Origin: Caldilineaceae bacterium
Lineage (GTDB): Bacteria > Chloroflexota > Anaerolineae > Caldilineales > Caldilineaceae
DNA length: 5,264 nt
Assembly: GCA_019637645.1 (NCBI GenBank)
Contig: JAHBVH010000147.1
Coordinates: forward strand, 1-5,264
Direction: 5' to 3'
Shown here: positions 1 to 774 of the stretch, in pieces
Position numbering within the stretch: the stretch's first letter is position 1
Layout: every line of letters begins with the position of its first letter
Made by a program: the position numbers and the translations under genes
Notes under the pieces: generated by a model
Told to the model about the DNA's origin: nothing
Databases searched by the model: none
Seen by the model: the letters and a program-made list of their open reading frames with translations, nothing else

Positions 1-327
1 CCGTGTTTCGTTAGGCTTGGTGGCCGACCGCTTCTTCTTTTTCTTCTTCTTACTCTGTTCCTGGCGAAAGATGAGCTTGCGTTCCTCTTTCGAAACCTGG
101 TCTTTAATGAGCTGGAAGAAAGCCCCGCCTGGTGTGCGACGGCGCTGTTCATTTTTGGTTGCCATCCCACCGGTGGCTTCAAGGTCTAGCGTCTGTTGGA
201 GAAAGGCGCGCGTCCGTTCCACACCTAAGGTAGCAAGTGCAGCCTCGATTAAGTCGAGGCGACGTTCATCGAGTGCTTGCGCAATCTCTTGGATTATTGC
301 TTGGGACTCGTTTACAAGTTCACTCAT
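1..327 (-). CDS. PHAX RNA-binding-domain-like small basic protein (3' end cut by window)
   Basis: Seen: an open frame of 109 codons runs from ATG at 327 to the window edge without a stop. AAAGGGA (331-337) lies just upstream of the ATG, which fixes the start. Residues about 10-90 match the pattern of the RNA-binding domain of eukaryotic PHAX (phosphorylated adapter RNA export protein). There is an ALDERRLDLI helix, an LQQTLDLEATGG segment (43-54), the hallmark RRRTPGGAFF (62-71), then FQLIKDQ and a KEERKLIF stretch (80-87). A lysine run (93-99) followed by R100 forms a basic tail. Known: in animals this domain binds RNA, including the snRNA being exported; Pfam's PHAX RNA-binding family also has bacterial members, as I recall. 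Inferred: a cytoplasmic RNA-binding protein whose target is unknown. It stands alone here, transcribed away from the aminopeptidase gene from its own promoter. The family call is fairly secure; the bacterial function is not known to me. Confidence 0.85.
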   Translation of the reverse strand, partial: MSELVNESQAIIQEIAQALDERRLDLIEAALATLGVERTRAFLQQTLDLEATGGMATKNEQRRRTPGGAFFQLIKDQVSKEERKLIFRQEQSKKKKKKKRSATKPNETR

Positions 328-354
328 GATTCCCTTTCGCATTTTGGCGTACGT

Positions 355-393
355 TCAGGGGCTCATCCCGTGACCTACGGGGTGCCTACCTGA
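355..393 (-). promoter_or_regulatory. Compound hairpin in the PHAX-like gene 5' leader
   Basis: Read on the minus strand, this 39-base stretch folds as three stacked helices: TCAGG/CCTGA, GGC/GCC and CCCGT/ACGGG, closed by a five-base loop AGGTC, with small internal loops between. It lies about 28 nt upstream of the ATG at 327 and within the leader expected from the promoter at 441-469. There is no U-tract, so it is not a terminator. A cis-regulatory structure, possibly bound by the encoded RNA-binding protein, is an inference. Confidence 0.45.
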
Positions 394-440
394 GTTCATC
401 CTAGCGCTGACGTTGTGATGGTGGTCAATTTCGCACTTCT

Positions 441-469
441 ATTGTAGAAAAAGGCGCAATCCCTGTCAA
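441..469 (-). promoter_or_regulatory. Sigma-70 promoter for the PHAX-like gene
   Basis: On the minus strand the -35 box TTGACA (464-469) is separated by exactly 17 bases from the -10 box TACAAT (441-446). The -35 is a perfect consensus match and the -10 matches five of six. Transcription should start near 434, giving a leader of about 107 nt before the ATG at 327. Confidence 0.85.
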
Positions 470-477
470 AGCGCCTT
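451..477. repeat. Inverted repeat over the promoter: AAGGCGC-N13-GCGCCTT
   Basis: Perfect 7-bp arms lie at 451-457 and 471-477. They flank the -35 box of the minus-strand promoter, with one arm inside its spacer. The arm centres are 20 bp apart, about two helical turns, the geometry expected of an operator for a dimeric repressor. Read on the minus strand the right-hand arm is followed by TTTTTC-like bases, so it could also look like a terminator, but the overlap with a near-consensus promoter makes an operator the better reading. Confidence 0.4.
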
Positions 478-481
478 AATC

Positions 482-529
482 GTTACATTTGTTGCAAAGA
501 CATCATGCTCTATCAATCTAGAATGTAAC
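482..529. repeat. Spaced inverted repeat GTTACATT-N32-AATGTAAC
   Basis: Perfect 8-bp arms lie at 482-489 and 522-529, with centres 40 bp apart (close to four helical turns). They sit directly upstream of the PHAX-like promoter. The arms are too far apart for a compact RNA hairpin. A pair of half-sites for a DNA-binding protein is possible but unproven. Confidence 0.3.
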
Positions 530-672
530 ATTGTTTGGCTGGGGCTCCGTAAAATACAGAACCGCTTGGGTCATTGGCCCCGGCTGCAACCTCCTTCTTG
601 AACGCTACCCAGCCCAACGGCTAAGTTCTCAGCGCGGCATCGGATCGTCTTTTTTCGCCAACTCAGCGTTGT

Positions 673-681
673 TGATATACT
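673..681 (+). promoter_or_regulatory. Possible extended -10 promoter for the aminopeptidase gene
   Basis: TGA followed directly by TATACT (676-681) is an extended -10 element, the -10 hexamer matching five of six consensus bases. No good -35 box sits 16-18 bases upstream (only TTTCGC/TTCGCC-like sequence), which is tolerated by extended -10 promoters. Start of transcription would be near 688, leaving a leader of about 87 nt. Confidence 0.4.
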
Positions 682-703
682 TGCTTTACCGTAGCACCGG
701 AGC

Positions 704-738
704 CCGTGTGGCGAGACCGTGTGGCGAGACCGTGTGGG
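704..738 (+). repeat. 13-bp tandem repeat (2.7 copies) in the aminopeptidase leader
   Basis: The unit CCGTGTGGCGAGA occurs perfectly at 704-716 and 717-729, followed by a partial third copy CCGTGTGGG at 730-738. It lies between the possible promoter (673-681) and the start codon at 775. Perfect identity suggests a recent slippage duplication; a regulatory role cannot be judged from one sequence. Confidence 0.75.
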
Positions 739-774
739 TAGCATAAGATTTGTAGAAATGAGACGCTAATTACT

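Follow-up and report, generated by a model that had tools for sequence, protein, structure and literature searches.

Among the closest described relatives of the gene considered here is human PHAX, a protein of 394 aa for which little order is predicted beyond the RNA-binding domain (RBD) and which carries its CRM1- and cap-binding complex (CBC)-binding parts within residues 55-162 (PMC12350170). The human domain is described as binding single-stranded RNA in the title of its structure entry (2xc7), and a 2011 comparative study judged PHAX to be an animal-level innovation (PMC3032688). Here we analyse the first gene of a 5,264-nucleotide stretch of DNA from a Caldilineaceae bacterium (contig JAHBVH010000147.1, the whole stretch hereafter called the window), whose product matches this same domain. 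On balance, we consider that the gene probably encodes a two-domain protein of a mainly-Chloroflexota kind, PHAX-OB, in which a PHAX-type RBD is followed by an OB-fold domain, and that this protein acts on RNA. The parts of the gene that lie within the window are as follows.

1..327, minus strand: 5′ part of the PHAX-OB gene, from the start ATG at 327, covering residues 1-109 of an expected ~240

55..294, minus strand: PHAX RNA-binding domain, residues 12-91 (PF10258, 82.1 bits, E 2.8e-23)

115..147, minus strand: QRRRTPGGAFF, residues 61-71, in the best-conserved stretch of the domain and shared with human PHAX

31..51, minus strand: run of seven lysines, residues 93-99, which shows as a CTT repeat in the DNA and corresponds to an inter-domain linker in close relatives

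The original prediction, made from the sequence alone, had recognised a PHAX RNA-binding fold from the EATGG and RRRTPGGAFF motifs, both of which are present in this open reading frame (ORF), and the profile, alignment and model results all agree with it. The match to PF10258 (PHAX_RNA-bd; cut-off 25) is far above chance level and covers profile positions 2-83 of 84, and a phmmer search against PDB sequences aligned window residues 8-100 with the human PHAX-RBD (2xc7, E 3.5e-12) and residues 10-92 with a Cryptosporidium protein (2w4s, E 1e-7); human PHAX entry 8pnt was matched as well (E 6.4e-11). Because these alignments span the full domain, the call rests on the domain as a whole and extends beyond the RRRTPGG stretch. 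In our own alignment, the window domain is identical to the human one in 30 of 85 columns, and to that of Cryptosporidium parvum 2w4s (named an ankyrin-repeat protein in the PDB) in 21 of 83. Across 66 aligned locus proteins, the GG of QRRRTPGGAFF is invariant and the T nearly so. Finally, the AlphaFold2 model of a full-length relative (P0003, 82% identical), used in place of the cut window protein, has the helical PHAX-RBD fold and superposes on the solved PHAX domains. Profile and model thus support the presence of a PHAX RNA-binding fold in this bacterial protein.

The likeness to human PHAX comprises the RBD profile, the predicted helical fold and an L..E / E..GG / RRRTPGG core, but is confined to the domain. 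Only 11 residues precede the RBD of the window protein (which starts at residue 12), with no ARS2, CBC or CRM1 region, and the features of an export adaptor (N-terminal CBC helix, nuclear export signal, phosphorylation sites) are not found in it. Human PHAX is predicted to be largely disordered outside the RBD, whereas the bacterial relatives carry an OB domain. CRM1/RanGTP-dependent nuclear export presupposes a nucleus, which the presumed bacterial host does not have.

The idea of a small stand-alone protein ending in a lysine tail did not hold up. The ORF starts at a methionine whose equivalent is also the start in close relatives, and no stop codon is reached before the window ends at base 1, so that a stand-alone protein of 109 residues is not established; its relatives are two-domain proteins, the closest full-length one among the matches listed being P0003 (241 aa, 82% identity over 98% of the query). 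A homologue profile search, with candidates limited to 0.55-1.75 times the query length, found 257 proteins at E<=0.01, 120 of which were listed. An RBD profile matched 120 of these 120 and a second-domain profile matched 119 at least partly (both profiles having been built from 20 of the same 120), the sole listed homologue without a second-domain match being the window's own cut protein. Among the 66 locus proteins, the second domain was joined to the RBD in 54. The run of lysines takes its place in this architecture: in close relatives it lies between the RBD and the OB domain, as a linker to a conserved C-terminal domain rather than as a tail. Of 173 two-domain proteins examined, 20 have a run of at least six lysines, and all 20 are among P0003-P0024.

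For full-length relatives, the C-terminal domain is confidently predicted to adopt an OB fold (pLDDT, the model's per-residue confidence, 93.8) of the SSB/PriB type, with a topology like that of SSB, PriB, RPA and LysRS. No sequence relationship to these proteins was detected: no Pfam or NCBIfam OB family matched among 20 members scanned, and the PDB sequences held no credible solved relative by sequence. A search with the OB profile returned 120 listed proteins, 60 of which carry PF10258 and 60 of which (69-194 aa) are without any Pfam domain. By homology with its relatives, the window gene itself presumably continues into an OB domain off the window. Variants on this layout were also seen, with two successive OB-domain matches in the PHAX proteins of loci L054 and L046 and two PHAX-domain matches in that of L057. 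In L094 (genome G466, from the phylum of L064), the PHAX domain gives way to a long stretch rich in proline and charged residues, and no OB domain is apparent by eye in this 410-residue open frame.

We next considered which other domains the family carries, using 66 locus proteins chosen for PF10258 (matched by 66 of 66); this set is without L037, L045 and L058 (domains in two frames or short ORFs) and L052 (contig end), and includes L069, L073, L077 and L081. An RRM_1 domain was found in seven of the 66 and a cold-shock domain (CSD) in five (E<=0.01; the CSD match of L038 does not reach the threshold that Pfam itself sets). Since RRM and CSD are established binders of RNA or single strands, fusions to them give the strongest indirect indication of a family that acts on RNA, although the window protein has neither domain in its 109 residues. 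They lend indirect support to the suggestion that this may be an RNA-binding regulator. Proteins P0023, P0027 and P0028 have an N-terminal ParB_N domain (rechecked in P0023). When traced on an 82-protein tree, the RRM label requires two changes, only one of which is forced by strongly supported branches, while CSD and ParB each fit a single origin, with L028, which lacks a CSD, inside the CSD region. One 612-aa bacterial protein (L036, 2331-4169) combines four RRMs with a PHAX domain and an OB domain. A PADLOC anti-phage scan gave no match for P0003, the L065 PHAX-OB protein or L036, and matched L013 to a cold-shock model only.

The most likely way for such a protein to work is the following. 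The helical PHAX-type domain at the N terminus would grip single-stranded RNA, as we infer for the window protein also, and a flexible basic linker, lysine-rich in this clade, would tether it to the C-terminal OB-fold domain, which in turn may hold a second single strand or RNA segment. PHAX-OB could then serve as a sequence-tolerant RNA chaperone or stabiliser, in a role broadly like that of bacterial cold-shock and RRM proteins, and several copies of it have probably been taken up by mobile elements.

To describe the distribution of the family, 84,980 species genomes were scanned by pattern, which gave 77 stretches and 64 confirmed loci. These counts are limited to the scan's own patterns, which missed at least one member (L094, found later in a different genome collection). 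Going by record labels, 61 of the 64 loci are in Chloroflexota lineages (lineage names being placed in this phylum from general knowledge), one is Nitrosomonas (L002), one “bacterium” (L017) and one Myxococcales (L064). A whole-genome profile search matched 22 of 400 Chloroflexota genomes (the centre genome of the sample having been picked as a known match), 2 of 235 genomes from the phylum of L064 (one being the chosen centre) and 1 of 398 from the phylum of L002 (the chosen centre alone), while none of 14 named control genomes matched in each of the three phylum samples. Since the sole match in its phylum sample was the chosen centre, L002 is possibly a misbinned contig; with an integrase directly upstream, this Nitrosomonas-labelled locus might be a Chloroflexota contig binned in error or else an element acquired by transfer. 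Up to three copies per genome were found among 14 genomes picked as carriers, and four matches in one of the 400 Chloroflexota genomes (G242). Overall, the family is patchily distributed, with its centre in Chloroflexota, as would be expected of an accessory gene, which PHAX-OB probably often is. Carriers among named strains include Thermosporothrix hazakensis ATCC BAA-1881 and Herpetosiphon aurantiacus DSM 785, the copy of the latter (Haur_5073, PF10258 E 6e-13) being on plasmid pHAU01. Close to this plasmid copy (L087) are two-component genes, a gene with a WYL domain and CRISPR-associated genes.

The main alternative, which we regard as rather unlikely, is that the family serves chiefly in replicon maintenance: plasmids and integrated elements would carry it as an SSB/PriB-like protein that acts on single-stranded DNA or regulatory RNA in replication or partition. 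In its favour are features of the gene neighbourhood, for which we counted 66 loci, excluding L067-L086 (duplicate loci or additional copies). Five of the 66 have a P22_AR_N-type antirepressor gene 58-312 bp upstream of the PHAX gene and on its strand (L005, L009, L013, L016 and L021; checked by Pfam in L005 and L013, and with a 101-residue ORF intervening in L009), compared to a chance expectation of ~2e-4 per gene (from 48 such genes in 37.6 Mb of five genomes), with a distance cut-off chosen post hoc, after inspection. The five loci fall in different small clades, L005 and L009 being within one larger clade. ParA-like genes were found within 3 kb in 7 of 66 loci (own profile, without Pfam check) and ParB-like genes in 3 of 66 (own profile), one of which is confirmed by Pfam (L021), whereas the L013 candidate was given no family by Pfam. 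A DnaB gene (L013) and a prim-pol gene (L034) are also found nearby, an integrase adjoins in 2 of 66 loci (L002, Pfam-confirmed; L012, profile only), and both the three ParB_N fusions and the pHAU01 copy would fit a replicon function.

Several points weigh against this interpretation. The antirepressor, ParA, ParB and integrase profiles had these very loci as their seeds, and many of the contigs are short, so that the neighbour counts are descriptive; in most of the 66 loci no such genes were seen, though here too short contigs are common. The window itself has only ordinary chromosomal genes apart from a tRNA, and the PHAX and RRM domains point to RNA. In addition, tblastn matched just 1 of 72,556 plasmid records, namely pHAU01, and 0 of 50,697 records of a phage collection. 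A conserved chromosomal operon was considered as well, and rejected: in a clustering of neighbours covering 59 loci (56 of L001-L066 plus L069, L073 and L077), no neighbour family was common to most loci, the top cluster being present in 14 of 59 at variable positions. As a separate observation, antirepressor genes (E<=0.001) occur in 8-14 copies in each of genomes G003, G004, G646 and G647 and in 3 copies in G645, and P22_AR_N-type copies number 0-1 in eight other PHAX-bearing genomes searched.

An RNA-directed PHAX-OB protein could also belong to a more specific system, and a Y-RNA- or tRNA-like RNA partner had indeed been guessed at from the window sequence. One locus fits this guess. A viral collection yielded two matching contigs (L065 and L066), and in L065 a PHAX-OB gene (9962-10765), a YrlA-like RNA (10995-11101) and a Ro60 gene (11211-12821) follow each other on one strand. 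The Ro60 gene is clear (TROVE E 4.6e-44, vWA_Ro60 E 2.1e-47), and the YrlA match is sub-threshold (36.1 bits, where the gathering score is 69; E 9.3e-5), Rfam having been applied at an E-value threshold to L065 only. That PHAX-OB is a subunit of a Ro60-Y RNA-type ribonucleoprotein (RNP), binding the tRNA-mimic Y RNA YrlA, is nonetheless improbable. The arrangement is not general among the loci examined. In four further viral Ro60 loci (L089-L092), the flanks examined contain no PHAX gene; in L092, a YrlA-like permuted tRNA-mimic pattern lies directly upstream of the Ro60 gene (position 5827, plus strand), so that Ro60 and a YrlA-like RNA occur without PHAX too. Conversely, a search of the other PHAX loci for relatives of the L065 Ro60 found none, both Ro60 and Y RNA being present in 1 of 66, and on the side of the PHAX-OB gene that is in the window there is neither a Ro60 gene nor a Y RNA (the opposite side being off the window). 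A simple YrlA-like pattern was likewise absent from the other PHAX loci and from the window, but it is a strict pattern, and its silence is weak evidence, as three of those four viral Ro60 loci (L089-L091) escaped it too.

At the genome level, 4 of the 400 Chloroflexota genomes have both PHAX (22 genomes) and TROVE (16 genomes), compared to 0.88 expected (hypergeometric p-value 0.008). In these four genomes, the two genes are on different contigs, and the matching genomes are large (4.2-7.5 Mb for PHAX, 3.0-8.3 Mb for TROVE). With assumed size-matched backgrounds of 240-120 genomes, the p-value rises to 0.04-0.28, and the co-occurrence is unconvincing once large genome size is considered. A broader conjecture, to which we give an outside chance, would make PHAX-OB the RNA-loading subunit of a small-RNP system of bacteria and phages, of the kind seen in L065, and would have the eukaryotic export adaptor co-opt an RNA-binding module that originated in bacteria and there diversified through pairing with RRM, cold-shock and OB domains.

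Eukaryotic contamination, or a recent acquisition from a eukaryote, might come to mind for a domain named for and characterised in eukaryotes. Both can be set aside as highly improbable, given that the flanking genes and tRNA of the window are bacterial in type, that Pfam-positive relatives occur in many Chloroflexota records including named strains, and that the bacterial branches are long, the RBD-OB architecture is common to the bacterial relatives and little more than a third of the aligned positions match the human domain. An RBD tree of eukaryotes and bacteria (85 rows, 88 columns) was too small to place its two eukaryotic rows.

The domain itself is already named by automatic annotation, as “phosphorylated adapter RNA export RNA-binding domain-containing protein” in a Caldilineaceae metagenome-assembled genome and as “PHAX RNA-binding domain” by JGI. 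Among the matches listed for open-licence PMC literature, at the level of titles and abstract beginnings, no bacterial PHAX-domain protein is described, and within the same literature the OB partner, the RRM, CSD and ParB fusions, the antirepressor and partition neighbourhood and the PHAX-YrlA-Ro60 locus all appear to be undescribed. The presence of the PHAX RBD in dozens of Chloroflexota loci contrasts with the view of PHAX as an animal-level innovation (PMC3032688). The bacterial relatives provide a reference set for examining the origin of the eukaryotic PHAX domain, and bacterial PHAX-OB represents a predicted RNA-binding family that is testable in cultured strains.

In the window, the neighbours of the PHAX-OB gene are an M29 peptidase gene, GcvT, GcvH, a solute-binding protein and a tRNA-Arg. 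The region ahead of the gene was also searched for structured RNA, by folding z-scores and Rfam, with nothing out of the ordinary:

343..774, no strand: intergenic region from the PHAX-OB start to the M29 peptidase gene, with ordinary RNA folding (z -0.41 and -0.33)

An Rfam scan of the window at the gathering threshold matched the tRNA alone, with no match in this region. The tRNA-Arg (TCT) gene occupies minus-strand positions 2135-2209 and separates the M29 peptidase gene from gcvT. Directly ahead of the M29 peptidase gene, at 700-737, lies a tandem repeat with a 13-base unit (GAGACCGTGTGGC) present in 2.9 copies.
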